A DNA stretch of 64,000 nt, taken from positions 1-64,000 of the forward strand of contig NZ_JANQDH010000076.1 in NCBI RefSeq assembly GCF_029891735.1, read 5' to 3'. Below, one piece after another: positions 22,814-54,892 of the stretch (position 1 is the stretch's first letter; every line of letters begins with the position of its first letter). The stretch is from Chrysosporum bergii ANA360D (GTDB lineage: Bacteria; Cyanobacteriota; Cyanobacteriia; Cyanobacteriales; Nostocaceae). The translations under genes and the position numbers were made by a program. The notes under the pieces are model-generated. The model was given only the letters and a program-made list of their open reading frames with translations. It was not told the DNA's origin and searched no databases.

Positions 22814-22920
22814 TAGTGATGTACATCCATAGCAGGCAAGATGTATTAAGCAGCAAATAGGATGCTCGCATTACAAGACGATCATTTACATTTGTATCTC
22901 ACGTGTTTAAGAAATGCTAT
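22814..22920 (+). repeat. Dispersed ~100-bp repeat, copy 1 (kaiB-kaiC spacer)
   Basis: The right part (AGGATGCTCGC, ACAAGACGATCATTTACAT, TTTGTATCTCACGTG, TTTAAGAAATGCTAT) is nearly identical to copies at 46910 and 54793. The left part (GTGATGTACAT) is diverged. No protein is encoded. It occupies most of the kaiB-kaiC intergenic region. Confidence 0.85.
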
Positions 22921-22985
22921 AACAAACTACCAATTTTAGTTTATTCATCTAAAAACAGGGTTCAACACCCATTTGTTAACAAGCA

Positions 22986-24545
22986 ATGAGCGAAAAAGAC
23001 CAAGCAGCACCAAACAACACCCTAATTACTGGGGTAGAAAAAATTCGCACGATGATAGAAGGCTTTGATGACATTAGCCACGGAGGTTTGCCCATTGGCA
23101 GAACTACATTACTGAGTGGTACATCTGGCACTGGCAAAACCTTATTATCACTGCAATTTATCTATAACGGGATCACCCGCTTTGATGAAGCAGGTGTATT
23201 TGTTACCTTTGAAGAATCCCCCAGCGACATTATTAAAAATGCCCAAATTTTTGGCTGGAATTTACAAAACCTAATTGAGGAAGGAAAATTATTCATTCTT
23301 GATGCTTCACCAGATCCGGAAGGTCAAGATATTGTTGGTAACTTTGATTTGTCGGCCTTGATTGAACGTTTGCAATATGCCATTCGTAAATATAAAGCCC
23401 AAAGAGTATCCATTGATTCAATTACCGCAGTTTTTCAGCAGTATGAAGCCATGGGGGTAGTCCGGCGAGAGATTTTCCGCCTTGTCGCCCGTCTCAAGCA
23501 CCTGCACGTCACAACTATCATTACCACTGAACGCAGCGAAGAATACGGGGCTGTTGCTTCCTTTGGAGTGGAGGAATTTGTTTCTGATAATGTGGTAATT
23601 GTCCGTAATGTTTTAGAAGGAGAACGTCGCCGGCGCACAATTGAAATTCTGAAACTGCGTGGTACAACTCACATGAAAGGGGAGTATCCTTTCACAATCA
23701 CCAATGAAGGAGTCAACATTTTCCCCTTGGGAGCAATGCGCTTAACCCAACGCTCCTCCAATGTCAGAGTATCATCTGGAGTCAAAACCCTCGATGAAAT
23801 GTGCGGGGGTGGTTTCTTTAAAGATTCTATTATTTTGGCAACAGGAGCCACCGGCACTGGTAAAACTTTACTAGTCAGTAAATTTTTGCAAGACGGGTGC
23901 ATAAATGGTGAACAAGCAATATTATTTGCCTATGAGGAATCCCGGGCTCAACTGTCTCGCAATGCCTATTCTTGGGGAATTGATTTTGAGGACTTAGAAC
24001 GTCAAGGGCTATTGAAAATAATTTGTACTTATCCTGAATCAACAGGTTTAGAAGACCACTTACAAATTATTAAATCAGAAATTGCCATCTTTAAGCCAGC
24101 CCGCATTGCCATTGACTCCCTTTCAGCATTAGCCAGAGGTGTGAGCAATAATGCCTTCCGCCAATTTGTCATCGGTGTTACTGGTTATGCCAAACAAGAA
24201 GAAATAACCGGTTTTTTCACCAATACAACTGACCAATTTATGGGATCACACTCCATTACTGACTCCCATATTTCCACAATTACTGATACTATTTTAATGT
24301 TACAGTATGTAGAAATTCGCGGCGAAATGTCACGGGCAATCAATGTATTTAAAATGCGTGGTTCATGGCATGACAAAGGTATCCGTGAGTATAACATTAC
24401 AGCTGATGGTCCAGAAATTAAAGATTCCTTCCGTCACTACGAAGGAATTATTAGTGGTTCCCCTACTCGGGTTAACGTCGATGAAAAAGCGGAACTCTCT
24501 CGCATAGTTCAACGTTTTGACAAAAAATCAAGTTCTGATTCTTAG
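22986..24545 (+). CDS. kaiC: Circadian clock ATPase/kinase KaiC
   Basis: A 519-residue double RecA-type ATPase, the hexameric core of the clock. The CI domain has Walker A GTSGTGKT at 45-52 and the catalytic EE in TFEESPSD; the CII domain has GATGTGKT at about 285 and FAYEESRAQ. The autophosphorylation pair in SHISTITD is Ser at about 430 and Thr at about 431. The C-terminal tail has KaiA-binding A-loop character. The ATG at 22986 follows an AAGCA purine stretch. Downstream, hgdD lies on the same strand, as I recall for Anabaena. Confidence 0.98.
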   Translation: MSEKDQAAPNNTLITGVEKIRTMIEGFDDISHGGLPIGRTTLLSGTSGTGKTLLSLQFIYNGITRFDEAGVFVTFEESPSDIIKNAQIFGWNLQNLIEEGKLFILDASPDPEGQDIVGNFDLSALIERLQYAIRKYKAQRVSIDSITAVFQQYEAMGVVRREIFRLVARLKHLHVTTIITTERSEEYGAVASFGVEEFVSDNVVIVRNVLEGERRRRTIEILKLRGTTHMKGEYPFTITNEGVNIFPLGAMRLTQRSSNVRVSSGVKTLDEMCGGGFFKDSIILATGATGTGKTLLVSKFLQDGCINGEQAILFAYEESRAQLSRNAYSWGIDFEDLERQGLLKIICTYPESTGLEDHLQIIKSEIAIFKPARIAIDSLSALARGVSNNAFRQFVIGVTGYAKQEEITGFFTNTTDQFMGSHSITDSHISTITDTILMLQYVEIRGEMSRAINVFKMRGSWHDKGIREYNITADGPEIKDSFRHYEGIISGSPTRVNVDEKAELSRIVQRFDKKSSSDS

Positions 24546-24649
24546 ATTGAGTGTCATGGTATATTCATTTTAAATTGATGCTCGTGCTATATTCTGTGAA
24601 TAAGACAGGTTTTCTGCCGCTATTATTGATTTTTGTGTGAGGAGATGCG

Positions 24650-26515
24650 GTGAAAGGACAATACTTATTCTATAGTTTACTACCTAGTGTCACAGCAGCA
24701 GTATTAACGAGCCAGCCTGGATTGGCTCAAACGGTAAGTGGCGTAACACTTGCGTCTTCTCCTAGTGTCTTGACTTACACCGATGGTCGAACCTGGGTTA
24801 CAGACAATATTTATAGTCAACTGCCTAATACTAAGACACAAATTTTTCCAGATATATTACCCCAATCTGGTTTAACTACATTTGATTTACAGTCTTCATT
24901 TAGTAAGAGTAACCCAGTTATCTTGACAAGAAGTACTGTTATACCCAATGAAGGTAAATTTTCCAGTTTCAGACATTGGTTAAATTCTGCCCCACAGCAG
25001 CCTCAAACACCAAGTCTCATTGCTAGTTCCCATCCAGAATTGAAAAAAACTGGTGTGGACACTTTTACCTTCCGCACAACCTCGGCTTTGGGAAAGATGG
25101 GTGGAGATTCAACTACTTTGCCAGTTGAAACCCAGTATGTTGTACCTGCTAGCACTGGTCAAATTCCCACACCACCACCAACTGTGGAAATTCCAGATTA
25201 CCTAATTCCCAGTGCTAATCCTCTGCAATTTCCTACCAAACCAGAGGAAGTGACAGTAAAAGGCAATCAGCCGATTACACTAGAACAGGCGTTAGAACTA
25301 GCAAAGCGGAACAATCGTGAGTTGCAGGTGTCTTTACTGGAGCTAGAACGCTCTCAAGCGGCCCTGCGTCAGGCTCAAGCCGCTTTGTTGCCTAATGTTG
25401 GTCTAACTGCTGATCTTACTCGCAGCCGATCTGCCGCAGAACAGCTACAGCTAGAACGACAATTTGGTTCATCAGCACCAGTTGCAGAACCCACAACAGC
25501 CTTTACAGGTCAAGCTCAACTAACATATGAACTGTTCACCTCTGGCAGACGACAATCTACCATAAGACAGGCAGAGGAAGAGGTACGGTTTAATGAGTTA
25601 GCAGTGGAAGCACAATCTGAGCAAATTCGCCTCAATGTGTCCACAGAATACTATGACTTGCAACAAGCAGACGAACGAGTACGCATTGCCCGATCTGCTG
25701 TGGAAAATGCCCGGGCTAGTTTACGAGATGCTGAAGCTTTAGAAAGGGCGGGAGTTGGTACGCGATTTGATGTCCTGCAATCCCAAGTTAACTTGGCTAA
25801 TTCTCAGCAAGAACTGACAAATGCTCTCTCTCGACAAGAAATCGCCCGTCGCACTTTATCGACCCGGTTAAATTTACCACAATCGGTAAATATTACCGCA
25901 GCCGACCCTGTGCAGTTAGCCGGTTTATGGGAGGAAGACCTAGAGAGTAGCATTATTTTAGCGTTCCAAAATCGCCCGGAACTACAACAGCAATTGGCAA
26001 GACGTAACATTAGTGAACAGCAGCGCCGACAAGCACTGTCTGCTCTTGGACCTCAAGTGAGTTTGATTGCTAGTTACAACCTGCTAGATCAATTTGACGA
26101 CACTGTGAGTGTCACTGATGGCTACTCCGTGGGAGTCCGGGCTACTTTGAACTTGTACGATGGTGGAGCCGCCAAAGCCAGCGCTGCCCAAGCAAAAACT
26201 AATGTAGCCATCGCAGAAACGCAATTTACTGAACAGCGCAACCAAATTCGCTTTCAGGTAGAACAGGCTTTTGCCATCCAGAAGGCTAATTTGGAAAATG
26301 TCCAAACTGCCAATACCGCTTTAGAACAGGCTAGGGAAGCTCTGCGTTTAGCTCGCTTGCGATTCCAAGCCGGTGTAGGTACTCAAACTGATGTGATTAA
26401 CTCCGAGAATGACTTAACCAGAGCCGAAGGTAATCGAGTTACAGCTATATTAGAATACAATCGCGCTTTGGCTCAGTTACAACGGGCTATCACTTCTAGG
26501 GCATTAGTTAAGTAA
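24650..26515 (+). CDS. hgdD: TolC-like outer-membrane efflux protein (HgdD-type)
   Basis: A 621-residue outer-membrane factor. A signal peptide (about 1-26, ending GLAQ) is followed by a long Pro/Thr/Ser-rich N-terminal extension (to about 205) and two OEP/TolC repeats starting with ITLEQALELAKRNNRELQ. Alternating coiled-coil segments such as RQAEEEVRFNELAVEA would form the periplasmic tunnel. In Anabaena the gene after kaiC encodes HgdD (TolC), which exports heterocyst glycolipids and other substrates with ABC and RND pumps; I assign the symbol by similarity and position. The start is GTG at 24650, preceded by a good GAGGAG site. Confidence 0.85.
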   Translation: MKGQYLFYSLLPSVTAAVLTSQPGLAQTVSGVTLASSPSVLTYTDGRTWVTDNIYSQLPNTKTQIFPDILPQSGLTTFDLQSSFSKSNPVILTRSTVIPNEGKFSSFRHWLNSAPQQPQTPSLIASSHPELKKTGVDTFTFRTTSALGKMGGDSTTLPVETQYVVPASTGQIPTPPPTVEIPDYLIPSANPLQFPTKPEEVTVKGNQPITLEQALELAKRNNRELQVSLLELERSQAALRQAQAALLPNVGLTADLTRSRSAAEQLQLERQFGSSAPVAEPTTAFTGQAQLTYELFTSGRRQSTIRQAEEEVRFNELAVEAQSEQIRLNVSTEYYDLQQADERVRIARSAVENARASLRDAEALERAGVGTRFDVLQSQVNLANSQQELTNALSRQEIARRTLSTRLNLPQSVNITAADPVQLAGLWEEDLESSIILAFQNRPELQQQLARRNISEQQRRQALSALGPQVSLIASYNLLDQFDDTVSVTDGYSVGVRATLNLYDGGAAKASAAQAKTNVAIAETQFTEQRNQIRFQVEQAFAIQKANLENVQTANTALEQAREALRLARLRFQAGVGTQTDVINSENDLTRAEGNRVTAILEYNRALAQLQRAITSRALVK

Positions 26516-26548
26516 ATTTTCCCAACAACTCATTATATCTTGGTTGCC

Positions 26549-26580
26549 AGCCCCCAGATTTATCTGTGGGGCTTTAAATT
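26549..26580 (+). terminator. Intrinsic terminator after hgdD
   Basis: A strong hairpin (AGCCCC-CAGAT / ATCTG-TGGGGCT, 2-nt loop, one bulged T) is followed by TTTAAATT. It sits 33 bp after the hgdD stop and fits a rho-independent terminator closing the kai-hgdD region. Confidence 0.75.
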
Positions 26581-26683
26581 GATCAAATTGACAGAAGCTG
26601 CTGTTTGCTGTACACTTATTTGGTATGATTGCCAGTGATTGGGCTTTAAGTTTTACACAGTTTTATAGTAAAGGTATTCAACA

Positions 26684-27124
26684 GTGAGACAGATTTTTTT
26701 ATCCTGGGTTCTGTGTGCTGTTTTGACTAGTGGTTTACTAATCGGCTCTGCCCATTCTCCTGCATTAGTTGTAACTCATGACAAAAGCGATTATACAATT
26801 GATAATCGGGGCTTTGGCAGTTTTCATCATGTAACTCAACCCCCTAATCAACTTCCCTGGAAGGAAAAAGATGTAGTTACAGATTCTTTACCTCCAGGAT
26901 ACGCAACAAGCAACCCTGAGCAATCCCTACTTTTCTTTGAGGAGGATGCCTATTCTGATAATATTAGTATTTGGATGAGACTTTTGTCCATTCCGGCAGG
27001 ATATTATGATTTTGTTGTGTATGTTCTTTCCTCGGTTCTCGTTGTGGTTTATTTCTGCTATAACAAGCGTAAAAAATCAAAAATAACTATTAAAAAACAT
27101 AGAAGGAGGAAGAAAAGAATCTGA
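26684..27124 (+). CDS. Hypothetical single-pass membrane protein
   Basis: A 146-residue protein with a GTG start at 26684. It has an N-terminal signal peptide (about 1-24, ending GSAHSPA), a polar, Pro- and aromatic-rich extracytoplasmic region, one membrane helix near the C-terminus (about 108-128) and a strongly basic tail with many Lys/Arg (about 129-146). No family is recognised. The topology suggests a periplasm-facing domain anchored in a membrane with a positively charged cytosolic end. It lies between hgdD and rppB, convergent with the latter. Confidence 0.6.
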   Translation: MRQIFLSWVLCAVLTSGLLIGSAHSPALVVTHDKSDYTIDNRGFGSFHHVTQPPNQLPWKEKDVVTDSLPPGYATSNPEQSLLFFEEDAYSDNISIWMRLLSIPAGYYDFVVYVLSSVLVVVYFCYNKRKKSKITIKKHRRRKKRI

Positions 27125-27195
27125 CAGTAAAACTGAAAAAAAATCGACCTTAGATTTTCATGCAAGTGTAAATTATTTAATTGGATAATGTTGAT

Positions 27196-28557
27196 TCAGA
27201 GACTCGATGAATGCATTGCTAACTTGTGAGGTAACTTAATAGTAAAAATACTACCTTTACCTAATTTACTCTGTAGATTTATACTACCGTAGTGTGCTTG
27301 CACAATTGCCTGAACGATCGCTAGTCCTAATCCAGAACCGCCAGTGCTACGAGCGCGATCGCTATTCACTCGATAAAAGCGATCAAAAATCCGCGACAAT
27401 TCTGACTGAGGAATACCAATACCTGTATCTTCAATTTGCATTACGGCATAGTGTTCACTACGCTCTAAACTAACTGTTACTTCACCACCAGATGGTGTGT
27501 ATTGAATAGCATTGATAATTAAATTAGAAATCAAACGATAAAGCTGGTCTTGATTAGCGATAATATTGACAGGAGTGGACACCAGAATCTGAGATTTTAG
27601 GGTGATATTTGTTGAAATTGCTAATGCTGCAAACTCCTCTATTAAGTCACTAATAATATCATTTAAACAACAAATATCATAACTGATTGGCACAGGTTGA
27701 CGGTCTAAGCGAGACAGTAATAATAAATCAGCCACAAGATTAGTTAGGCGTTGATTTTGACGTTGGATAGTTTGTAAAACTTCTCGCGCTTCTAATTCAT
27801 CCAATTGTGATATCAAAAGTGCTGATTCTACAGTTGCTTGAGTTGCTGCTAAAGGTGTGCGTAACTCATGGGCTGCATCGGCTGTAAATTGCTGAATTTG
27901 TCTGTATGATTTATAAATTGGTTGCATTGCTAAACCTGCTAACCACCAACTAGTAAAACCAACTACACTAATCACAATTGGCGAACCAAAGGCTAAAATG
28001 AATTTAACCGCATCTAAATAGTTACGGAAATCTTCAATACTCCGCCCGACTTGAAGATAACCCCAATCTTGATTATCTTGGGTATGCAATGTCCTAGAAA
28101 TTTGGTGATAAATCTTCCCTTGACTATCTTTAAGAGTTTGCCATAATTCAGGATTAAATTTTGAGGATATTCCTTCTGGATAAGCTCCGGCTATGGCAAA
28201 TAAACTTCCAGAAGTATCATAAAAACGCACATAATAATGCTCTTTGTGAATAACGCTGAGGGTGTGACGATGGTAAGTTATTGGTTCAGAAAGACAACTC
28301 TTTCTTACTATGCAAATTTTGGGTAAAAGTCCATAGATGACTGGTTCTAATTGACCGGGTTGTTGTAACTTTAATTCAATACTATCATGTAGCGATCCGG
28401 CTACTGATTCTATTTCCTGGTCTAATGTCATCCAATGAGCGTGAGAAACAGCTTTATAAATACCAATTCCACATAAACTTAAAATCAGAGCCATAACTAG
28501 GGCATACCACACCGCCAAACGTAAACGGGTGCGCTGAAATAATCTATTTTGCTTCAT
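27196..28557 (-). CDS. rppB: Sensor histidine kinase, RppB-like
   Basis: A 453-residue membrane sensor: a helix at about 12-32, an extracytoplasmic sensor region (about 33-170) with two Cys (ICIVRKSC), a second helix (about 180-205), HisKA with DAAHELRTPLAAT, and HATPase_c with NLIINAIQY, DTGIGIP and GSGLGLAI. The N-terminus (KQNRLFQRTR) and overall layout resemble RppB/NrsS-type kinases of cyanobacteria, reported to respond to redox state or nickel. The gene overlaps rppA by 14 bp, so the pair is translated from one message. Confidence 0.8.
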   Translation of the reverse strand: MKQNRLFQRTRLRLAVWYALVMALILSLCGIGIYKAVSHAHWMTLDQEIESVAGSLHDSIELKLQQPGQLEPVIYGLLPKICIVRKSCLSEPITYHRHTLSVIHKEHYYVRFYDTSGSLFAIAGAYPEGISSKFNPELWQTLKDSQGKIYHQISRTLHTQDNQDWGYLQVGRSIEDFRNYLDAVKFILAFGSPIVISVVGFTSWWLAGLAMQPIYKSYRQIQQFTADAAHELRTPLAATQATVESALLISQLDELEAREVLQTIQRQNQRLTNLVADLLLLSRLDRQPVPISYDICCLNDIISDLIEEFAALAISTNITLKSQILVSTPVNIIANQDQLYRLISNLIINAIQYTPSGGEVTVSLERSEHYAVMQIEDTGIGIPQSELSRIFDRFYRVNSDRARSTGGSGLGLAIVQAIVQAHYGSINLQSKLGKGSIFTIKLPHKLAMHSSSL

Positions 28558-29248
28558 CAGTGAGATTTAACCTATACCCCATACCATGTAATGTTTCAAT
28601 CATATGTTCACAGCCACTATTAGCCAACTTACGACGTAGTAACCTCACTTGTGCTGCAACCACATTACTTATAGGTTCGGAATTTACTTCCCAAAGTTGA
28701 TAGCGGAGTTGTTCAGAAGTGACTATGTGATTTTGGTGTTTCATGAAATATTCTAGTAGTTGAAACTCCTTCTTAGTTAAGGTAATTTCCTGTTGATTTC
28801 CTGCCGGATTTCTACTGAATACTTTACTCTTACCATAATCTAAGGTGAGATTTCCTACAGTTAATTCCTGGGGCTGAAATTGAGGCGATCGCCTTTGTAA
28901 AGCCCGCAGTCTTGCTAATAATTCTGCCATCCCAAAAGGTTTGACTAAATAATCATCAGCACCCGCATCTAATCCAGTAACTTTATCTGCCATACTGTCT
29001 TTAGCTGTCAGCATTAACACAGGCAGGGGATTACGCCGATAACGCAATTTTTTGCATAATTCTAAACCGGAAATACCGGGTATCATCCAATCAAAAATAC
29101 ATAATGTGTACTGAGTCCAACTATTTTCTAAATATGCCCATGCCTCATCACCATTCATTACCCAATCAACCAAATATTTATGTTGGGCAAGAGTTCGCTT
29201 AATAGCAGTACCTAAATCTGGTTCATCTTCCACTAATAACACTCGCAT
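28544..29248 (-). CDS. rppA: OmpR-family response regulator, RppA-like
   Basis: A 234-residue regulator. The receiver (about 1-118) has LLVEDEPDLG, phospho-Asp in IFDWMIPG (about 51), the Thr in MLTAKD and Lys in LVKPFGM. The winged-helix DNA-binding domain (about 130-228) has LTLDYGKSKV, LTKKEFQLLEYFM and VVAAQVRLLRRKL. It is paired with the overlapping sensor gene. It lies 105 bp downstream of the MOP-type transporter gene on the same strand, so it could be part of that transcription unit or have its own promoter in the gap. Confidence 0.82.
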   Translation of the reverse strand: MRVLLVEDEPDLGTAIKRTLAQHKYLVDWVMNGDEAWAYLENSWTQYTLCIFDWMIPGISGLELCKKLRYRRNPLPVLMLTAKDSMADKVTGLDAGADDYLVKPFGMAELLARLRALQRRSPQFQPQELTVGNLTLDYGKSKVFSRNPAGNQQEITLTKKEFQLLEYFMKHQNHIVTSEQLRYQLWEVNSEPISNVVAAQVRLLRRKLANSGCEHMIETLHGMGYRLNLTDEAK

Positions 29249-29353
29249 AAAATTAATCTCTTCTGATCTACTAATAACTTTTATTAAATTTTTTATAGTT
29301 CAGTTAAGGCTACAATTAATTTGTGAAGTTCTTAATAAGGACTAAAGTACTGA

Positions 29354-31816: not shown

Positions 31817-32357
31817 ATTAACCTTGTGAAAACAAAAAAAACGAAGAGTCAATCTATGTTTTATGTTGAAGTCTAAAAATGAAATTAAGATGAATTTTTA
31901 AAATTTATTTTGCATATTTTTCAAAAATTATAGCTTTTCCCAGTCTAATGAATTACAATAGCAAAGATAAAGCTGTGGATATACTCAAAGGTAAAAATGA
32001 AAGCCTATTCCCTAGACTTTCGCTAAAAAAAAATATTTGATACATACTCGGAATGTGGAATATAGCATTCCTTAAACACGTAAAATACAAATGTAAATGA
32101 TCGTCTTGTAGTGCGAGCATCCTGTTTGCTAATGATGTACCTCACTTTGGCAAAATTCGCTACGTATAATCATGTATTTTCTTGATTGTGTTTTTGAATC
32201 ATCCATAAATATGATTTGTGGCATTTTTGTATTTAATTGTACTTTGCTAATGGTAGTGTAATGTAAAAATACGGATTAATGAGTTTACGTGTAACTTGAT
32301 GTGTTTTTTTATATATGATATAGTGATTTCAAGTTGGTAACATATCTTAAGAATTAC
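31817..32357. other. 540-bp divergent region with a mobile repeat
   Basis: Lies between the SbnA-like gene and the HEAT-repeat gene, which read away from each other. It contains repeat copy 2 (32062-32162). A TATGATATAG box at about 32315 may be part of the HEAT-gene promoter. No gene is seen. Confidence 0.5.
32062..32162 (-). repeat. Dispersed ~100-bp repeat, copy 2
   Basis: A full-length copy in reverse orientation, from ATAGCATTCCTTAAAC to GGCAAAATTCGCTA, with the internal hairpin region GCGAGCATCCTGTTTGC. The length is 101 bp, and the ends are short imperfect inverted repeats (ATAGC.../...CGCTA). Confidence 0.85.
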
Positions 32358-41420: not shown

Positions 41421-41437
41421 CACAGTAAGCTGTTACT

Positions 41438-41544
41438 ATAGTGAATTTTCCCCAACTGATGTACATCATTAGGGTGTAAAGCAAACAGGATGCTCGCGTT
41501 ACAAGATTTTTACATTTGTATCTTACGTGTTTCAGAAATACTAT
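41438..41544 (+). repeat. Dispersed ~100-bp repeat, copy 3
   Basis: A full-length but diverged copy from ATAGTGAATTTTCCCC to TTTCAGAAATACTAT, containing the conserved CAGGATGCTCGCGTTACAAG and TTTACATTTGTATCTTACGTG segments. It lies between the zinc-ribbon and GT1 genes. Confidence 0.82.
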
Positions 41545-41682
41545 ATAATCCCATCATGATATCATACACTCCCAGCCATGTCAGAACTTTTAAACAGAAT
41601 TAAAAACTTTTGAAATCAAACTTAATAACAACTATCCCTGTTTTATGGTAGATATCATTTTAAATTATCAGACACAGGGATC

Positions 41683-43006: not shown

Positions 43007-45637
43007 CTACGAACCCGCCAGAGTTATAGACATTAAATCCAATTGGCGAGCAAAAATTTCATCAATTGGTAACATCTCTCCGTCAGTAGTCATAAATTTA
43101 TGGTCTTTTGTTGCTCGAATAATTGAACCATCTTCTAAAGTATATTCAAATACATCTTGTTCACCGCGATTATGCCATTGTGCTATGGGTTGAGTGTAAA
43201 TGTTACCATGACTATCAACGCTGTACACATGACACTCAATGGCTTTTTCTACAATCTCCCCAATGGGTATCAAGCCATATTCTACTGTTAAAATCTCAGT
43301 ATCAGCACTTAAACAATATTCAGCAAATTTTAACATTTGCTCGAATAACTCTTCTGCTACTTGTTTTTTAACCCCATTCTTAGCCGCACCATCTACAAAT
43401 TTTTCTCGCTGCTTTTGCATTTCAGCCACTTTCTTTTTACCCATCGCCCGGCGCAGCAAGTCCGCTTGTCCTAGGGAATATCCAGCCATATCTTGAGCAA
43501 TTTTCATGATTTGCTCTTGATAAACCATAATTCCATAGGTTTCATTCAGTACCGGTTCCAGTATGGCGCTTTGATATTCTATTGTTTCTTTTCCATGTTT
43601 ACGGTTAATAAACTTAGGAATGAGTCCCGCATCTAGGGGTCCAGGTCGGTATAGTGCCAAAATAGAAGAAATATCTTCAATATTAGAAGGCTTTAAATCT
43701 CGGACTATCTGACGCATCCCGGAAGATTCTAATTGAAATATTCCCTCTAATTCCCCAGCTTCTAACAGTTCATAGGATTTTCTCACATCTTGGGGTAATG
43801 TGGTATGTTCCCCTTTAGCCAAAATTTTCTGGGCTTTTCTTTCCTGACCTGTGATCTCATCTGGGTCAATTTGAAAGCCACGGTTTTGTGCAATTAAATC
43901 AATGGTTTTTTGAATCAGGGTCAGATTACGTAAACCTAAAAAATCCATTTTTAACAAACCCATTGATTCCAAATCTTCCATAAAATACTGGGTAATCACA
44001 GAGCCGTCATTATTCTTTTGAAGGGGTACAATTTCATCTAAAGGTTCAGCCGAAATCACTACACCTGCTGCATGAACACCAAAAGTTTTGTTAGTTCCTT
44101 CAATTCGCATGGCCATATCAACCCAGTGGCGAACCTTGGGGTCATGATCATATTTTTCTTTAAATTCTGGTGCTGGGGTTGCATCGGAAATCATCACTTT
44201 CAATTTAGTGGGTTTACCGCGCACTACAGGAATTAATTTAGCCATTTTATCCGCTTCCCCATAGGGAATATTTAATACTCTGGCTACATCTTTTAAAACT
44301 GCTTTGGAAGTTAAGCGGTTAAAAGTAATAATTTGAGCAACTCTATCTTTACCGTATTTTTCTGTTACATATTCAATTACTTTATCCCGCTTTTCAATAC
44401 AGAAATCTGTATCAATATCAGGCATAGATTTACGTTCTGGGTTTAAGAATCGCTCAAATAGTAACCCATGATGTACCGGGTCAATGTTGGTAATTCGCAT
44501 GGCGTAAGCCACCAAAGAACCAGCAGCAGAACCACGACCAGGACCCACGGGGATGTTATTATCTCTAGCAAATTTGATATAATCCCAAACCACTAAAAAA
44601 TAGGTAGAAAAACCCATCTTTTGTAACATTTTTAATTCATATTCCAATCTTTCCTTATAGACTGGATCAACCTCATGACGGGATTTGCGATTTAACCTTT
44701 CTAAAAGTCCTTGCCAAGCTACTTCTTCCGCGTAAGTATCAGCGGTGTGACCAGAAGGAATGGCGGGTGTGGGGATTTTAGGATCCCCCATAATATCATA
44801 TAATCCCACTTTATCCGCCACTTCTTCAGTGGTGGCTATGGCTTCAGCAATGACATCATCTGGTAAATGATCCCGGAATAGTTGCTTCATTTCTGCGGCG
44901 GATTTAAGATATTCTGTGCCGCTATAACGCATTCTTTTATCTTCACTAATTAGCTGGCCAGTTTGAATACATAACAAAGCGTCGTGTGCTTCCACATCAA
45001 AACAAGATATAAAATGGGAATCATTAGTAGCCACAAATTTAATTTCTAATTCCCTGGCAATTTTGATAATTTCCACATTAACAATGCGGTCTTCTGGCGA
45101 ACCGTGGTCTTGAATTTCTAAATAATAATCATCACCAAATACTTGTTTATACCACTTGGCAACTTTACGGGCTGCATCTGGTCTACTACTGAGAATGGCT
45201 TGGGGTATTTCTCCACCTAAACAAGCACTGGTGACAATTAAGCCTTCACTGTATTGTTTAAGTAAGTCTTTGTTAATACAAGGACGGGCAAAAATTCCTT
45301 TACCTTGCACTCCTTGCAGGTGGGAAATAGTGGTAAGTTTAACTAAATTTTTGTAACCTTGGGTATTTTTAGCTAAAACAACTTGATGATATTTCGGGCG
45401 ACGTTCTTGTTTTTCAATGTCGCCATTAATAATATACATTTCGTTGCCGATAATTGGCTTAATACTTTTACCTCGGCAGATTTTAATTAATTCTATAGCA
45501 CCATACATGACACCATGATCAGTGAGGGCGATGGCTTTCATGTCTAATGCGATCGCCTGATCTATTAATTCCGGTAGCTGGCTAGCTCCATCAAGTAAAC
45601 TGTAGTCACTGTGAATATGTAATGGCACAAAAGACAT
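43007..45637 (-). CDS. dnaE: DNA polymerase III alpha subunit, N-terminal part, with split-intein N-half
   Basis: An 876-residue protein. Residues 1-774 are the N-extein: PHP domain ([11 protein letters not shown]), the palm with [15 protein letters not shown] and catalytic PDIDTDF, and part of the fingers, ending at KFAEY. The junction codon is a TGT at 43313-43315, beginning the 102-residue intein N-half (43010-43315), with [10 protein letters not shown] and the TKDH block B. The C-half gene must be elsewhere; trans-splicing would rebuild full DnaE. I set the start at ATG 45637 because the upstream in-frame sequence is a mobile repeat. Confidence 0.97.
43010..43315 (-). other. Split intein N-terminal half (DnaE-N intein)
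   Basis: 102 residues at the C-terminus of the dnaE product. It starts with Cys1, continues [14 protein letters not shown] and [19 protein letters not shown], and has block B (ATKDHKFM) and [10 protein letters not shown]. It closely resembles the Nostoc punctiforme DnaE intein N-half. Splicing needs the separate C-half carrying the terminal His-Asn. Confidence 0.97.
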
Positions 45638-45639
45638 AT

Positions 45640-45792
45640 AGTGATATACAAATGTAAATGATCGTCTTGTAACACAAGCATCCTGCTTGTTAATATCGTC
45701 TTGTAACACAAGCATCCTGCTTGTTAATATCGTCTTGTAACACAAGCATCCTGCTGGTTAATCATGTACCTCATTTGAGGAAAATTCGCCAT
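45640..45792 (-). repeat. Dispersed repeat, copy 4, with internal 34-bp triplication
   Basis: Fills the whole gap between the dnaE start codon and the DUF2237 stop codon. The unit beginning ATCGTCTTGTAACACAAGCA occurs at 45661, 45695 and 45729 (period 34), the third with one G change near its end. Each unit holds a perfect hairpin, ACAAGCA-TCC-TGCTTGT. The left end is shortened (ATAGTGATATACAAATG). Confidence 0.88.
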
Positions 45793-45793
45793 A

Positions 45794-46909: not shown

Positions 46910-47009
46910 ATAGCGAATTTTGCCCAAGTGAGGTACATCATGAGCAAGCAGGACTTGCGTTACAAGACGATCATTTACATTTGTATCTCACCTGTTTAAG
47001 AAATGCTAT
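46910..47009 (+). repeat. Dispersed ~100-bp repeat, copy 5
   Basis: A well-preserved 100-bp copy from ATAGCGAATTTTGCCCAAG to TTTAAGAAATGCTAT, with GAGGTACATCATGAGCAAGC and ACAAGACGATCATTTACAT inside. It lies between nadK and the NblR-like gene. Confidence 0.9.
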
Positions 47010-47029
47010 TCCTTCTCTTTGGGTGGTTA

Positions 47030-47947: not shown

Positions 47948-48188
47948 ACTTAAATATCCAAGTTTTAGCGATGCTTACTACTTATGTGATCCTGACATAT
48001 TTTGGAGAAACTAGTCATATACTCTTTTGTTAACTAATGGTAACAAATACATAACTGGAGATTGTCTCTCAACCAAGGCTTATCAACCAATGCACGAAGA
48101 TAAATTCCTCGCGCACCATTTTTTCTGATTGGTATGTATGCCATGAGGAAAGTATAGCATTAGTTGATAAACTTTAGCACATGATTAA

Positions 48189-49190
48189 CTAGCTAACTTC
48201 CTTAGAAGATTGTTTAAAAGGGGTCTTTTTGGGTTTCTCTTTTTTCTTTCTAGACTTGTTTTTCTCATAGTCTAACTCTTTGAGCTTTCTCATAATCCGA
48301 CTGAAATATTCTTCCAGGTAGCTTTCCAGAGTTGTGGTTTCTCCCTTGTCCAAGCCAAAGACTTGGTATACCTCATCCATGGGCGCGTTCAAGGGTCTAC
48401 CACTAGCCAAGACTTCTGTAAACTCCAGTCTGTCCGCAACATTCCATCCCCACTGAAAAAAGCGGATCATACCACGTATAGCACGCAATAAGTTAATGGG
48501 CATTCGCGTAATTTTGGCTTCTTTTCCAGATAACCGCTCACACAGACTGATGATTTCCTCAGCAGTCCAAGGGCGAGTACCCACCACGGGGAAAGCTTTG
48601 TTCTTTGTTTCTGGCACACTCAAACTGCGAATAGCAAACTTAGCGATGTCCTGTGTATCCATGTAAGCCACTGGCGAGGAACTACCAGTTACCCAAACTG
48701 GTTGACTTTCCAAAATGGGGATACCATATTGACCAATTAAGCCCTGCATAAAGCCAGCCAGGCGTAAAATTGTGTAATTTAGCCCAGAATCAGCTAAAAA
48801 AGCTTCGGTGCAGCGCTTAATTTCCATCAGTGGCACTTGTGGATACTTATCCGCATCAAGAATAGAAAAGAATATAAAACGTTCTACACCCGCGCTTTTT
48901 GCTGCTTGAATTAATGCTACCTGTCCATCCCAATCAACTTGTTTAATGGTGAGGGATTCCGTAGCACGAGATGTAGCAGCATCAATAACCGCGGTGATAC
49001 CTTCCATGGCCGCCGTCAGGCTTTCCGGGTTGCACAAATCTCCCCATACCAATTCAGCACCCCATTCTTTGAGAAATGCGGCTTTTTTCTGACTCCGTAC
49101 CAGACAGCGTACTTTATGCCCCTCATCGATAGCACGACGAGCCACTTGTCTTCCTAGGGTGCCAGTGGCACCGACGATTAATAAATTCAT
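48189..49190 (-). CDS. ycf39: Ycf39-like NAD(P)-binding protein, PSII assembly
   Basis: A 333-residue atypical short-chain dehydrogenase/NmrA-like protein. It has the Rossmann motif GATGTLGRQV, WGDLCNPESLTAAM, IFFSILDADKY and LRLAGFMQGLIGQYG. Ycf39 binds chlorophyll-delivery Hlip proteins and newly made D1 during photosystem II assembly. The C-terminal 25 residues are strongly basic (KSRKKKEKPKKTPFK). It is a conserved cyanobacterial gene, and petM lies 189 bp upstream on the same strand, consistent with a photosynthesis cluster. Confidence 0.9.
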   Translation of the reverse strand: MNLLIVGATGTLGRQVARRAIDEGHKVRCLVRSQKKAAFLKEWGAELVWGDLCNPESLTAAMEGITAVIDAATSRATESLTIKQVDWDGQVALIQAAKSAGVERFIFFSILDADKYPQVPLMEIKRCTEAFLADSGLNYTILRLAGFMQGLIGQYGIPILESQPVWVTGSSSPVAYMDTQDIAKFAIRSLSVPETKNKAFPVVGTRPWTAEEIISLCERLSGKEAKITRMPINLLRAIRGMIRFFQWGWNVADRLEFTEVLASGRPLNAPMDEVYQVFGLDKGETTTLESYLEEYFSRIMRKLKELDYEKNKSRKKKEKPKKTPFKQSSKEVS

Positions 49191-49305
49191 GAGGGTAGTA
49201 ATAACTTTTTTAACTTTTATTAAAAGAATCTTAACAGAATTAGTTGTCTAAACAAAAGTTTACATTAATTTAATCAAGTTATGGCATACAGAGACCATCA
49301 CCAGT

Positions 49306-49355
49306 CTGGGAAACAGGAAGGAAGATCACTTGAATGTCTCCCTCCCAGTTCCCAG
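49306..49355 (-). terminator. Possible hairpin after petM
   Basis: CTGGGAA at 49306 pairs with TTCCCAG at 49349 across a long loop. Placed between petM and ycf39 on the minus strand, it may be a weak processing or termination structure. Confidence 0.3.
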
Positions 49356-49379
49356 TCCTTTGTTTTCAGCCTCTAAGGA

Positions 49380-49484
49380 TTATTCTTCTGCGCCCTGAAT
49401 TTTCAGTAACAAAGCACCTAAAGCCCAACCCACGAAAATTAAACCGAAAGACAATAGCGCTGCATTTAGAATTTCGCCGCCCAT
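49380..49484 (-). CDS. petM: Cytochrome b6f complex subunit 7 (PetM)
   Basis: A 34-residue single-helix subunit of the b6f complex ([29 protein letters not shown], ending GAEE), of standard length. It begins at ATG 49482-49484 with an AAGGAGAAT ribosome-binding site. It was read directly from the minus strand. The Gly-Trp-Ala-Leu-Gly pattern in the helix is typical. Confidence 0.95.
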
Positions 49485-49597
49485 TAGTGTGATTCTCCTT
49501 TGCAATTAGCAGTGATTCTCAAGGTTTCCCTAGAGATGTTCTGTTGTTTGGGTTGTTTGGTTAGATTGGAGTGATGACTCTAATCTGATTTTCACCA

Positions 49598-49800
49598 TTG
49601 ACACTCCCCCCGCCTAAATGCGGGGGATTCTGTACTCCACCTTGCCACTGGCTCTAATAGACTTTCGCCTAAAAGAGTAGAGGTCGCAAGTCCTACAGCG
49701 TTACTTTGGAACTGCCCGCCCCTAGCTTGCCTAGCAAGATTTAAAATATTAATTGCTGCATTTTTTCACAATGCGCCCACAATTACTGCATTGTTCACTT
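49598..49800 (-). pseudogene. IS200/IS605 tnpB C-terminal remnant with right-end hairpin
   Basis: On the minus strand a zinc-finger-like piece CSNCGRIV is followed after a frameshift by AAINILNLARQ and, further on, STLLGESLLEPVARW and SPAFRRGECQ, closely matching C-terminal TnpB features (zinc ribbon, NAAINI motif). A CCCCCGC...GCGGGGG hairpin (about 49606-49626) marks the element's right end. The rest of the transposase is missing. The end of IS605 genes often overlaps a guide (omega) RNA, which would be broken here. Confidence 0.65.
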
Positions 49801-49852
49801 GTGTAATGTTGCGATACAGCAACATCTATTTTACCAAATTTACCAGCAAAAT

Positions 49853-49876
49853 ACTCACTTCGGCAAAGTTCGCTAT
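49853..49876 (-). repeat. Dispersed repeat, copy 6 (end fragment)
   Basis: CTCACTTCGGCAAAGTTCGCTAT is the terminal part of the dispersed repeat (compare CTCACTTTGGCAAAATTCGC in copy 2). Only this end is present, 20 bp before the pdxA start. Confidence 0.6.
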
Positions 49877-49896
49877 AAGCAAAAAAAATAGTAAAT

Positions 49897-50949
49897 ATGA
49901 CAAGAGAAAATACTCCGCGTTTAGCGCTGACACTAGGAGACCCGGCTGGTATTGGACCAGAAGTGATTTTAAAAGCTTTGGCAGACCCTCAGTTTAGTCA
50001 TAAATGCGACTTGACAGTAATAGGTAGTAAAAACTTGCTCCTAGAGGTTTATCAACAGTTAAATTCTACTGATTTAGCCAATCCCAACCAATTACAAGTT
50101 CTAGATGTACCATTAAAACCGGAAATTACCCAGGAAATTATGATGGGTAGGGGTAATGCTGCTAGTGGTGCGGCAAGTTTTGCTTATTTGGAATATGCGA
50201 TCGCCCGCACCCTGTCCGGTGAATTTGATGGTATTGTTACAGCCCCCATTGCCAAATCTGCCTGGCAGTTAGCAGGTTACAACTATCCAGGACAAACAGA
50301 ACTGTTAGCAGAAAAATCAGGTGTTGATCGCTTCGGGATGTTATTTGTCGCGCGATCGCCTCACACTGGTTGGACTCTCCGCACCTTATTGGCTACCACA
50401 CATATTCCCCTATGTCAAGTAGCCCAAACATTAACACCAGAGTTATTGACGAAGAAATTAAATTTATTAGTAGATTGTTTAGTACAAAACTTTGGCATAA
50501 AAAATGGCAAAATTGCGATCGCTGGCTTAAATCCCCACAGTGGCGAACAGGGACAACTAGGAAATGAAGAACAAGATTGGTTAATTCCCTGGTTAGAACA
50601 ACAAAAAATAAATCATCCCAACTTTCTACTCCAAGGACCCATACCACCAGATACAATGTGGGTTAAGCCTGGTCAAGCTTGGTATGGTAATTCTTCAGTT
50701 CACAATGTCGCCGATGCTTACCTAGCCCTGTACCACGACCAAGGTTTAATTCCCGTCAAGTTGATGGCTTTTGACCGTGCGGTTAACACTTCTATTGGTT
50801 TACCTTTTGCGCGTACTTCACCAGACCACGGTACAGCATTTGACATTGCCGGTCAAGGAATCGCTGACGCTACAAGTATGAAAGCAGCCATCGAGTTGGC
50901 GACCGAGTTAATCAGTCAAAAATTAATGGTGGGTAGTGTAGATTCATGA
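49897..50949 (+). CDS. pdxA: 4-hydroxythreonine-4-phosphate dehydrogenase
   Basis: A 350-residue NAD-dependent enzyme of vitamin B6 synthesis (the DXP-dependent route). It has [18 protein letters not shown], the [16 protein letters not shown] region, TAPIAKSAW, metal-binding His in [11 protein letters not shown] and [10 protein letters not shown], and the [23 protein letters not shown] signature. Length fits the family. ATG 49897 is preceded by an A-rich stretch. It probably has its own promoter in the IS-remnant region upstream. Confidence 0.95.
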
Positions 50950-51021
50950 GTATTTCCTCTTCCTACTTCCCAGTCAAATACCCTCCTTACATTCAGCCTC
51001 AAACCAGATCAAACATCACCT

Positions 51022-51252
51022 ATGACCTACACCCCTTCTAAACTACTTTCCTTTGAGAAATTTATTGCCCAATATGCTGACAATACCCGCTACGAATTAA
51101 TCGACGGAGAACTAAGAGACATGGAAACTACAGGTGATCATGAAGTTGTAGCTGGTAGCATTGCGGGTAGGATCTATGTAGAAATTTTTAATTCTAATTT
51201 TAACTGGTTAATTCCCAAAACTTGCTTGATCAAACCACTTCCAACTGAATAA
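51022..51252 (+). pseudogene. Truncated Uma2-family gene
   Basis: A 76-residue N-terminal piece of a Uma2 (DUF820) protein (KLLSFEKFIAQYADN, RYELIDGELRDM, HEVVAGSIAGRIYVEI). A full-length relative is about 190 residues; this one lacks the whole catalytic core. The frame stops three codons into the transition to a dispersed repeat copy, so insertion or an adjacent deletion probably cut the gene. Confidence 0.75.
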
Positions 51253-51345
51253 TAATGATCGTCTTGTAGTGTGAGCATACCTGCACTATACTTAGACTAC
51301 GCTCAGTACTAAGCGATCAGTACAAGTCCTGCTTGCTGCTGATCA
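51253..51345 (-). repeat. Dispersed repeat, copy 7 (degenerate, with internal insertion)
   Basis: ATGATCGTCTTGTAGTGTGA and GTCCTGCTTGCTGCT are parts of the repeat, separated by about 45 bp of unrelated sequence that includes GACTACGCTCAGTAC, a motif also seen at about 35418. It is partial and diverged. Confidence 0.65.
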
Positions 51346-51390
51346 AACCCTTCTTTACTTAATACAGTCCCCCAAGGATGTATCTGTATT

Positions 51391-51957
51391 CTAGCTCTCC
51401 TCACCAAAAACAGGAGGCCATAATTCAGCAATAGGTAACTCCCAATCCGGAAACAGTTCCGGTAAGGTCAAAGTATCACCCGTAGTTAAAACTATAGGTT
51501 CATTTTTACGCCCGTAAACCGTGACTGTTTCTGTGTCAGGATCAATTAAGATACCAATTACCGCGCCTAAGTGAATTAAATTGACAATTTTATCAACTAA
51601 AGGCTTAATTCTATCACTTTGGGATTTAATTTCTACTACTAAATCTGGAACAATTTCCCCAAAATAACGCGGGCTTTGGCGCAGGCGTGCAGCACGAACA
51701 AAGGAAACATCCGGGGCGGTGAGATTGCTATCAGGTAAAATAAAACCCCCAGCAGAATCAAATACCCTCCCCAACCGACGCGGATTAATCCAAGCAAACA
51801 GAAAAGCAATTAAGCGACTGCTAATTTCACTAGAAACAATATCTGATGGACCCACAACAGAAATTTTGCCATTTTGCAATTCAACATCGTAATCTAAGCC
51901 GGCTTGACTCAAAGCCATTTGGACTCGTTCGACATCTTTGATTGTCAGCATTGGCAT
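51391..51957 (-). CDS. Uma2-family (DUF820) PD-(D/E)XK protein
   Basis: A complete 188-residue Uma2 protein. It has the core Asp in LTAPDVSFVR, the second carboxylate in DLVVEIKSQSD followed by Lys-containing KPLVDKIVNL, and GAVIGILIDPDTETVTVY. The fold is endonuclease-like, but activity is unproven for the family. It lies 9 bp downstream of the RNase D-like gene on the same strand, suggesting co-transcription. Confidence 0.88.
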   Translation of the reverse strand: MPMLTIKDVERVQMALSQAGLDYDVELQNGKISVVGPSDIVSSEISSRLIAFLFAWINPRRLGRVFDSAGGFILPDSNLTAPDVSFVRAARLRQSPRYFGEIVPDLVVEIKSQSDRIKPLVDKIVNLIHLGAVIGILIDPDTETVTVYGRKNEPIVLTTGDTLTLPELFPDWELPIAELWPPVFGEES

Positions 51958-51966
51958 ACAAATTAT

Positions 51967-52596
51967 TTAATGTTCAAATAAATCTTTAAATTGCAACAAA
52001 TCTAAAGTGACTAAAGTCGGTAAAACTTGGAAGCATTCTTGAGCAATTTCCCAGCGATCTTCTCGTTTGAGCATAGCCATGAGCTTTTGTTGTACGCCGA
52101 GTAAGTAGCGGACATCATTAGCAGCATAATTCAGTTGGACTTCAGATAAATTAGCAGCATTACCCCAATCGGAACTTTGGGCGCTTTTATCTAACTCTAT
52201 CTGTTCCAACTCCAGAACCACATCTTTTAGTCCGTGACGATTGGTGTAGGTACGAGCCAGCTTACTAGCAATTTTTGTACAAAAAACAGGTTTGACTTGA
52301 ATTCCCAGGTTATGGCGCAAAGTAGCCAAATCGAAACGAGCGAAGTGAAAAACCTTCAGCACATTCTCAGATTCCAAAAGTGTTTTTAAATTTGGGGCTG
52401 CGGTTTGACCCCTGGCTATGCGAATAGCTGTTACTTGACCCTCGATATTGCATAACTGTACCAAACACAAGCGATCGCGCTGGGGTAATAATCCCATAGT
52501 TTCCGTATCTACAGCGATGGTATGGGATTTTAAATACTCAGCCAGAACAGCTGCGCTCAAGTCGCCATCGCCTACGTGAAAATCTTGTAATGTCAT
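51967..52596 (-). CDS. RNase D-like 3'-5' exonuclease
   Basis: A 209-residue DEDDy exonuclease domain. It shows Exo I AVDTETMGL, Exo II FHFARFDLATL and Exo III in NYAANDVRYLLGV (Tyr and Asp). The HRDC domains of full RNase D are absent, as is typical for the short cyanobacterial form. It probably trims structured RNA 3' ends; substrates are unknown. It is transcribed with the Uma2 gene downstream. Confidence 0.9.
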   Translation of the reverse strand: MTLQDFHVGDGDLSAAVLAEYLKSHTIAVDTETMGLLPQRDRLCLVQLCNIEGQVTAIRIARGQTAAPNLKTLLESENVLKVFHFARFDLATLRHNLGIQVKPVFCTKIASKLARTYTNRHGLKDVVLELEQIELDKSAQSSDWGNAANLSEVQLNYAANDVRYLLGVQQKLMAMLKREDRWEIAQECFQVLPTLVTLDLLQFKDLFEH

Positions 52597-52685
52597 GACT
52601 CAATAATAAATACAGTGTTTGTTAAAAAACAATACCATGAGACACCACCTTATTTGTGTAAAAATTCAGCACCTACTATTTAGTA

Positions 52686-53234
52686 CTAATTAGTACTCAG
52701 GAAAATTTGGGTCAAGTAAACTTCTCCTTGCTGATTAGTAGCCACACCAATCCCCGTGAGGTCGTAATTACCTCGAATATTCTGCAAATGTCCGGGACTT
52801 TCCAACCAGCCAGCAACAGCTTGACTAGCTGGGTTGTTGTATCCCTGATTAACCGCGACATTCTCAGACGCACTTTTGTAGCGAATGGGAATAGCAGAAA
52901 CTCGCTGTTCAAACCCCTGATGGCTAAAAGGTACTTTACCATTAGCCATGTTTTGGCTGTGAATTCGTGCTTGTTGAGTAATATGTGCATTTAAAATCAA
53001 CTTTGGCAACTTATGAGAAACTCGATATCGGTTGATATCGTCAAAAACTGATTTTTCTAGAGCATTAGTTTCCAAAGTATTAGTTAATGTAGCTGCTTGA
53101 CTGAAAGAAATTAATAACGGTTGATTAGGAGGGGTTTGTTGTCTAGAAGTTTTACCTGTGATGGTAAAGTTCATTAATCCACTCGTAAGGACAAGCGTAC
53201 TGAAAGCGATGCCAAAAGCAGGTTGTCTGAACAT
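52686..53234 (-). CDS. CAP-domain (SCP/PR-1) secreted protein
   Basis: A 182-residue protein with an N-terminal hydrophobic signal or anchor (about 7-25), a polar linker and a CAP domain (about 60-182). Conserved elements are VFDDINRYRVSHKLPKL, HSQNMANGKVPFSHQGF, the SENVA motif and AVAGWLESPGHLQNIRGNYDLTGIGV. The usual cavity His are present in FSH and GHLQN. CAP proteins are extracytoplasmic, and the role in cyanobacteria is unknown. Confidence 0.9.
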   Translation of the reverse strand: MFRQPAFGIAFSTLVLTSGLMNFTITGKTSRQQTPPNQPLLISFSQAATLTNTLETNALEKSVFDDINRYRVSHKLPKLILNAHITQQARIHSQNMANGKVPFSHQGFEQRVSAIPIRYKSASENVAVNQGYNNPASQAVAGWLESPGHLQNIRGNYDLTGIGVATNQQGEVYLTQIFLSTN

Positions 53235-53595
53235 GGACAGTGGCGTGATGTTTTTACTTGTTAGACTTATACTCTAATTTCTTGTTCTCATAACATATAA
53301 CAGGATACTATTTATAACTGCTCTAACCCAGTCATTTTGGCAAATACCTTACAGAAAAAATTAGTGAGCCATTTTTTTGATCAATATTTAAGCAACTCAC
53401 CCTCAAGTAGGAGGCTATCATGGCGATTCCTTATTTTTCATTATTTTTCATTAAGTTTTTAACCGATGAAGGCGATATTAGGCCCATTTACACGTTCCAA
53501 TACAACCGAGTTTGTAGCTGAAACTTGGCAAAGAACGGCGATGGATTGCTTTTGAAATGAATGAGGACTATATTAAGTTGAAATGTAAGATTTGC
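53235..53595. other. Intergenic region with short broken frames
   Basis: A 361-bp stretch with no gene I can name. Two overlapping plus-strand frames, from 53420 (36 codons to TGA) and 53467 (29 codons), look protein-like in places (LTDEGDIRPIY; GPFTRSNTTEF) but stop early and could be a gene fragment. Confidence 0.35.
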
Positions 53596-53808
53596 TTAAA
53601 TCTCGCCATTCACCTGCATTTGATGAACTTGGTCGGCTAACTCTTGGCGGGCTTGGTCATCTAGCCTATCAATAGCTAACATTCCCATTAGAATAACCTC
53701 TTTTAAGGTTAGACGTGTCGAATGTGCCTGTTTTTGCACAATATCCTTGATAATTGGACTGACACCAATTGCTGTACTAGCTCTAGCCACAGAATAACAA
53801 AGAAACAT
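53596..53808 (-). CDS. Small hypothetical protein
   Basis: A 70-residue frame with a hydrophobic start and a helical, Gln/Asp/Arg-containing second half (LKEVILMGMLAIDRLDDQA, then HQMQVNGEI). No family is recognised, and a helical antitoxin-like nature is possible but unsupported. It has no partner gene and a weak start context. Confidence 0.4.
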   Translation of the reverse strand: MFLCYSVARASTAIGVSPIIKDIVQKQAHSTRLTLKEVILMGMLAIDRLDDQARQELADQVHQMQVNGEI

Positions 53809-53865
53809 TGATTACTTAGCCTAAATCTTAGCACTTCCTTTAGTCTTTTCACGGGCATTTTTTCT

Positions 53866-54693
53866 TTAGCCACCGGTAATCATGGGTGAGTGGTTGAGAA
53901 TTTGATTTAACTTACCACTGCGATAACCTTCTAAGTCAAGGGTGACGTAGATAAATCCTAAATCCTGAAAAGCAGACACTAGTACCTGTAAATCAGTATT
54001 TAAAACAAAATCCTTGATATCTGCTGGTAACAATTCAATCCGGGCTGTATCTCCTTGAGAACGCACCCGCAAATTCTGCCAACCCAGCTTACGTAAATAA
54101 ATTTCTGCTCTCCCCACCCTTTGCAACTTGGCGATGGTAATTTCTTCACCATAGGGAAAACGAGAACTAAGACAAGGTTGGGCTGGTTTATCCCACCAAG
54201 GTAAACCGAGTTGTTGTGACAGTAGGCGGACTTCAGCTTTGGTTACACCCACCTCTGCTAAAGGCGATCGCGCTCCTCTTTCTTGGGCTGCTTGAATTCC
54301 TGGGCGATAATCATGTAAATCATCAGCATTAACCCCATCCACCACATAGGGATAACCCAACTGCAACGCTAGGGGTTTGAGAGTATCATGCAGTTCACTT
54401 TTGCAAAAATAACAACGGTTGACCGGGTTAGAAGTGTAATTGAGATTGTCCATTTCATGAGTTTGAACAACTTTATGGGCAATTCCCATGGTTGCGGCTT
54501 GGATTTTAGCATCTTCTAACTCTTCTGGTAAAAGAGAGGGTGAAACAGCAGTCACAGCTAAAGCGCCATCGCCCAATACATCATAAGCAATCTTGGCAAC
54601 CAAAGTACTATCAATACCTCCTGAGTAGGCAATCAAAGCCTGCTCCATTTCGCGAAATAAAACTTTTAATTGCTCAAGTTTTTCTGTTAACAT
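53866..54693 (-). CDS. larE: Sacrificial sulfur transferase LarE
   Basis: A 275-residue PP-loop ATP pyrophosphatase-type enzyme with SGGIDSTLVAK, the CxxC-type RCYFCKSELHD, and DVNADDLHD-like VVDGVNADDLHDYRPG. PAQPCLSSRFPYG carries the cysteine that, in Lactobacillus LarE, is consumed as the sulfur donor for the nickel-pincer cofactor of lactate racemase. The larB, larC and larA genes are not nearby. I chose ATG 54693 because the frame upstream to 54741 lacks family features. Some LarE homologues have a [4Fe-4S] variant, which I cannot tell here. Confidence 0.9.
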   Translation of the reverse strand: MLTEKLEQLKVLFREMEQALIAYSGGIDSTLVAKIAYDVLGDGALAVTAVSPSLLPEELEDAKIQAATMGIAHKVVQTHEMDNLNYTSNPVNRCYFCKSELHDTLKPLALQLGYPYVVDGVNADDLHDYRPGIQAAQERGARSPLAEVGVTKAEVRLLSQQLGLPWWDKPAQPCLSSRFPYGEEITIAKLQRVGRAEIYLRKLGWQNLRVRSQGDTARIELLPADIKDFVLNTDLQVLVSAFQDLGFIYVTLDLEGYRSGKLNQILNHSPMITGG

Positions 54694-54792
54694 AATTCCC
54701 CGATGTGGGCAAAACTTCATACCACTATCCAATTCTATCAAAAATAGAAATTGAATTTCTTGATGGCTTCAAGGCTTTAATTTACCCGGTTT

Positions 54793-54892
54793 ATAGCGAA
54801 TTTTGCCCAATTCAGGCACATCATGAGCAAGCAAGACTTGTGCTACAAGACGATCATTTACATTTGTATCTCACGTTTTTAATAAATCCTAT
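54793..54892 (+). repeat. Dispersed ~100-bp repeat, copy 8
   Basis: A complete 100-bp copy from ATAGCGAATTTTGCCC to AATAAATCCTAT, including TCATGAGCAAGCAAGACTTG and ACAAGACGATCATTTACAT. Its right end overlaps the stop codon of the downstream-facing hybrid kinase gene. Confidence 0.9.

Follow-up and report, generated by a model that had tools for sequence, protein, structure and literature searches.

Short intergenic repeats of Chrysosporum bergii ANA360D with mariner-like ends and a REP-like hairpin between them

Repeat copies in the window

The stretch analysed here, called the window throughout, comprises the first 64,000 nucleotides of contig NZ_JANQDH010000076.1 of Chrysosporum bergii ANA360D (C76:1-64000), whose genome assembly amounts to 3.92 Mb in 120 contigs. 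Its genes include kaiB, kaiC, nblR, hrmK and a dnaE half with the start of an intein, a set that suggests a filamentous cyanobacterium. A first-pass annotation had described a family of non-coding repeats of about 100 bp at eight sites and had proposed a MITE or a REP-like element. The family is real: six sites were recovered concordantly by repeat finding, BLASTN and a sequence profile, and the two others, at 49853 and 51253, are recognised mainly by eye. Both proposed labels apply, since the repeats join a MITE chassis to a REP-like hairpin cargo. The window holds three complete copies, one altered copy with both ends, two damaged copies, one end fragment and one core without ends.

The complete copies lie at 32061-32162 (reverse strand), between divergent cysteine-synthase-like and HEAT-repeat genes; at 46910-47009 (forward), between the NAD kinase and nblR genes; and at 54792-54893 (forward), between larE and hrmK. 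The second of these served as the query in the DNA searches. Among the named matches listed for the NAD kinase, the best comes from the MAG Nostoc sp. RI_552 (94% identity). The stop codon of hrmK (54889-54891) falls within the right end of the third. The altered copy, at 41437-41545 (forward), has both ends present with TA outside each.

Each of the two damaged copies has lost an end. The copy first listed at 22814 (22811-22921, forward) lacks its outer left end, so that the profile match starts at position 16, and carries an extra inserted piece. It lies in the kaiB-kaiC spacer, which is bounded by the kaiB stop at 22804 and the start of the kaiC ORF at 22986, and it takes up much of that spacer (window 22804-22986). 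The copy listed at 45640 (45641-45793, reverse) lacks its right end, and its 34-bp hairpin core stands in tandem in about three copies (TRF: 45653-45762); the profile matches it in pieces. It adjoins the ATG of the split dnaE N-half (45637-45635), a start inferred from reading the sequence together with the family match. In the relative's locus L031 the same dnaE N-half start is preceded by GGAGGG, which is absent in the window (45635-45793). Effects of these two copies on kaiB, kaiC and the dnaE N-half can be tested. A separate 21-bp tandem repeat of 3.3 copies lies at 4609-4677.

The remaining sites are partial. At 49852-49877 (reverse), upstream of pdxA, a solitary left-end fragment of about 26 nt was seen by eye, as the earlier annotation had it; the profile gives no match there at E <= 1. 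The supposed degenerate copy at 51253 is, by eye, a hairpin core in which a second palindrome is nested, at about 51248-51345 (reverse; far border set by eye). A weak profile match covers 51248-51284 (E 0.0039); the MITE ends are missing.

Abundance, anatomy and target sites

The right end (30 nt, at most three mismatches) occurs 85 times in the ANA360D genome and the reversed pattern not once, and the copies are therefore not due to chance. The sequence-only profile gives at least 156 matches at E <= 0.01 in this genome, a lower bound with 150 of 2070 candidates scored, so that copies extend beyond the window. By BLASTN, 40 of 193 candidates were scored and all 40 matched. The family has thus multiplied in the ANA360D genome. 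An exact 16-nt end is found 31 times there and once in G137, the remaining 143 genomes having no match, and its reversed control has one match in each of seven genomes; the G137 match (L119) was dismissed as chance, as it falls within a long coding frame.

Outside ANA360D the family is scarcely seen at the DNA level. With at most six candidates scored per genome, two of 145 family genomes gave DNA matches: ANA360D itself and G140, where the match, a 34-nt partial one, falls on a right end that belongs to a chassis MITE carrying a different cargo. The genus relative G001 (89% complete) gave none, with six candidates scored. Across 80 Nostocales loci (1.52 Mb) there was no BLASTN match at E <= 0.001 and there were three profile matches at E <= 1, the best of them in L031 of the genus relative (E 0.00016).

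To describe the copies, 65 unique right ends with at most five mismatches were collected, 58 of them with at most three; these are mostly best matches, and well-kept copies are accordingly over-represented. A left end lies within 330 bp in 54 cases. The two-ended copies measure 94-280 bp, 43 of the 54 between 97 and 121 bp. They are short, have no room for a transposase gene, bear terminal inverted repeats and occur in many copies, as is expected of MITEs. TA precedes the left end in 44 of the 54 (three being unlocated) and follows the right end in 40. Placement is intergenic: for the 51 copies whose flanks are long enough to judge, no ORF of at least 100 aa has a copy deep in its interior and three copies overlap an ORF end, and when the flanks of 52 sites were joined, an open frame of at least 120 codons ran across one. 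By eye, some flanks suggest a preference for palindromic targets, and in L014 and L028 the flanks of a central copy resemble mutual inverted repeats, as if a palindrome had been inserted into. Three right ends for which no left end was evident (L120, L129, L145) were inspected and put aside, there being no transposase in their ORF lists by eye; the left end of L120 was located 280 bp away. Next to the solo right end in L129, at about 2000-2830, are repeated frames resembling a CRISPR array.

The first-pass annotation had considered an IS630/mariner-type mobiliser suitable and had looked to empty sites in related strains. Its reading is supported. In a search of G001 (712,768 bases) for the 54 copy sites, nine copies had a flank match, and for five the two flanks fell on a single stretch. 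One of the sites is a clean empty site, in which a single TA stands against TA-element-TA in ANA360D. Copy L027 reads ..CATCAGAA-TA-[TAGC..GCTA]-TA-ATTGTGCA, and the genus relative reads ..CATCAAAA-TA-GTTGTGCA. Among 80 named loci, four chassis MITEs were found by a loose pattern; the one in L054 (Nostoc paludosum FACHB-159) has a duplicated TA relative to the empty L053 (Nostoc sp. FACHB-973), and L083 against its relatives is compatible with TA duplication, though less clearly. Relatives could not be aligned for this comparison at the 46910 and 45640 sites. A 2-bp TA target duplication is hence demonstrated for one ANA360D copy and for one MITE of a relative. G001 has two chassis MITEs of its own in 0.71 Mb, with different ends and a similar hairpin.

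The end plan and the IS630 elements that bear it

Of 145 family genomes, 35 have the end plan TAYAGCGGTTTY..TGAGGTACA; they represent 17 of 56 genera, and ANA360D is among them (search pattern TAYAGCGGTTTYN{2,14}TGAGGTACA; the reversed control gave 0 in all genomes). Classing of 67 distinct left ends from 30 genomes besides ANA360D gave 51 that are partnered and 16 that are not. A DDE_3 search in ten genomes found a match in all ten, above the cut-off in nine, and 30 of the 99 matches were made into loci. The end plan flanks the transposase on both sides in six: L320, L330, L337 and L345 of G073, and L321 and L331 of G125. It is not present on both sides in the other 24, among them every locus read from G113 (four), G029 (four) and G086 (one). 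These three genomes and G072 are among those richest in chassis MITEs; in G072, which has 32 pattern matches, the one DDE_3 match is a fragment below the cut-off. An autonomous element suspected in G029 between inward-facing ends 1.98 kb apart was rejected, as the ends belong to separate MITEs; the frames between them are not transposase-like by eye.

Five of the flanked loci, with transposase frames between the ends, measure 1034 bp (L320, L321), 1020 bp (L331) and 1019 bp (L337, L345) from end to end. The transposase of L320 occupies a single frame, whereas L321, L331, L337 and L345 each have it in two overlapping ones. The transposases of L320 and L331, which share 43% identity over 201 aa, match IS630 (NF033545) and DDE_3 (NCBIfam, Pfam), and their last codons fall within the inverted repeat. 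The IS630 ends are similar and not identical to the MITE ends, and the ANA360D right end (GCATTTCTTAAACACGTGAGATAC) is clearly different. Judged from these likenesses, the mobiliser family is identified as IS630, and the mover is probably a relative of the elements in G073 and G125.

The search for full-length IS elements with the same ends, also proposed at the outset, thus succeeded for the end plan in these two genomes, but not in ANA360D itself. In its assembly, in which gaps are possible, no IS630 with these ends was found, and its sole DDE_3 match, L115, was rejected as parent: it lies at a contig end, has other sequence on the assembled side and shares 27% identity with the L320 transposase. 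The source of the mobiliser may have been lost or may lie in assembly gaps. A parent IS in the same genome is usual for MITEs and not strictly required.

The closest well-described system is ISY100 of Synechocystis, a cyanobacterial element of the IS630/Tc1-mariner kind. Its transposase is the only protein required, insertion duplicates TA, and mini-transposons that retain 30 bp at either end are cleaved and transposed at TA as well as the full element (PMC2170065). ISY100 and the window element are alike in their TA target and its duplication and in short imperfect inverted end repeats, with a DDE transposase in ISY100 and in the IS630 elements that share the end plan; the window element differs in that it has no gene and its exact parent was not found. 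Since the constant part of the window element is about the size of an ISY100 end, it is taken to move by means of an IS630 enzyme supplied in trans, and by analogy its 28-30 bp ends may be enough for movement.

We therefore regard the repeats as very probably MITEs of the IS630 (Tc1/mariner) kind. So read, they are passenger transposons of about 100 bp that keep only the ends of a small mariner-like IS, with a short swappable hairpin at the centre. An IS630-type DDE transposase would bind and cut at the roughly 28-30 bp of each end; the enzyme, made elsewhere, would excise the element and insert it at a TA, which would be duplicated. The middle would be dispensable for movement and would house exchangeable cargo; in this family that is a REP-like hairpin, whose loop in some cases contains a second palindrome. 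Orphan cyanobacterial MITEs would thereby gain a candidate mobiliser family. In Anabaena sp. 90, 147 complete or partial MITEs were reported, 132 of them intergenic, without similarity to the inverted repeats of the ISs in the genome (PMC3542288); they are likened to the present family by description. Nezha is likewise a cyanobacterial MITE and is compared on the same footing. Literature searches with the letters of the element, whose scope took in a minority of subscription papers, returned no paper on it. As far as these comparisons by description with Nezha, the Anabaena sp. 90 MITEs and the repeats of Nostoc punctiforme go, the element is of a known kind in a new arrangement. Very small repeats in Nostoc punctiforme, described by Elhai in 2008, are said to sit within minitransposons and within one another and to show compensatory changes.

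The hairpin between the ends

Like ends enclose different cargo, mostly REP-like hairpins. In 51 complete chassis MITEs, each typed by the first of a set of loose patterns to match, the cargo is CCCCTC..GGGG in 25 (a class that also includes CCTCACCC..GGGTGAGG elements such as L255-L257), a GTAGTG hairpin in 12, a GTAGGGGC hairpin in eight, GATGAACGC-like in four, CTAGCCTCT in one and another type in one. Among the 20 copies of G072, like ends hold two unrelated cargos in 13 and two copies, respectively, with five unpartnered. Twelve of 60 family genomes contain the hairpin GCRGGCAAGATGCCYGCACTACAAGA, among them ANA360D, where it stands in two places and where MITE copies such as L018 carry near-identical hairpins. 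The 20 loci read, classed by loose patterns, comprise six with TAAGCTG on both sides (three genomes), two with TAYAGC on both sides (G027), eight with one recognised end or mixed ends and four without a recognised end. The TAAGCTG ends belong to a different DDE_3 element (L317, L318). By eye, GTAG stands beside the hairpin in part of the ANA360D copies.

The hairpin may have entered through repeated insertion into the loop of a folded MITE, through a single capture long ago, or when hairpins recombined with each other. A tentative proposal, which has some chance of being right, is that IS630 MITEs act as a general chassis in the Nostocaceae, whose central loop has repeatedly been colonised by REP-like hairpins and whose hairpin loops have in turn been colonised by further palindromes; folded single-stranded MITE DNA would serve as the landing pad, with the IS630 transposase as vehicle. 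If so, REPs could spread without a transposase of their own. Two repeat classes usually handled apart are linked here, in that IS630-ended MITEs carry REP-like hairpins as exchangeable cargo.

This proposal would also explain a case described from Anabaena variabilis in 2013, in which dimers of the GTAG-15 REP lie inside palindromes, TATAGGAnTnnnATTTGATTnnTGAAA (PMC3733652). The arrangement is alike in that a REP hairpin is central in a palindrome; the end sequence differs, and the original description has the REPs inserted in target palindromes. The half of TATAGGAnTnnnATTTGATTnnTGAAA matches the ends of DDE_3 elements in G113 (eight ends at four loci, each with 0 or 1 mismatch and TA outside), and from this likeness the A. 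variabilis palindromes are probably IS630-type MITEs too. The published REP target palindrome would then be reinterpreted as transposon ends.

A somewhat doubtful alternative, compatible with the MITE reading but opposed to repeated exchange, is that the hairpin was captured once long ago and has varied by descent. The same hairpin type in chassis elements of ANA360D, of the genus relative (the two in 0.71 Mb) and of genus g27 fits a single capture, as does a second palindrome that, by eye, takes the same position within the hairpin loop of G113 and of ANA360D. The two unrelated cargos of G072 argue against it, as does the near-identical hairpin in MITEs with the unrelated TAAGCTG ends in three genomes.

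It is improbable that the GTAG-tagged hairpin is itself the mobile unit, moved by a RAYT in the manner of a REPIN, with the flanking ends accidental. On the opposite strand the core reads TCTTGTAGTG-stem-loop and resembles a GTAG-tagged REP, 18 of the 20 loci lack a recognised pair of TAYAGC ends around the 26-nt core (by the loose patterns), and the ANA360D genome has 18 Y1_Tnp matches. However, the TA duplication and the IS630 ends delimit the mobile unit, for which reason this explanation was set aside, and accidental ends sit poorly with the left end found near 54 of the 65 right ends. The two Y1 proteins examined of the 18 are IS200 (NF033573, above cut-off); for REP_Tyr_transpos, one scores 31.1 against a cut-off of 80 and the other has no match. 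Many of the 18 places are short frames (44-86 aa), some at contig ends, and resemble decayed IS200.

That the repeat is a fixed, immobile regulatory RNA or DNA element at conserved sites, as its intergenic placement and a hairpin with some compensatory change might suggest, is highly unlikely in view of the empty site and the lack of a DNA match in the genus relative, the single 34-bp partial match in G140 elsewhere among the 145 genomes (at most six candidates each), an Rfam scan whose only match in the window is a tRNA, and modest folds of four copies on both strands (z from +0.44 to -2.84). Some of the changes in the stem may be compensatory. When the gapped alignment A1 was folded to a consensus, the yield was very small (-1.83 kcal/mol, with one of eight pairs changed on both sides). 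An initial count of covariation (134 of 192 cells, reached by 0 of 2000 shuffles) was discarded because the arms had been chosen for pairing, and was replaced by an anchored stem pattern, which fits 30 of the 54 copies and gives 17 distinct stems. In these, some rows of which still look misaligned, 75 of 102 cells are paired against a shuffle mean of 67.4, a number reached by 16 of 5000 shuffles.
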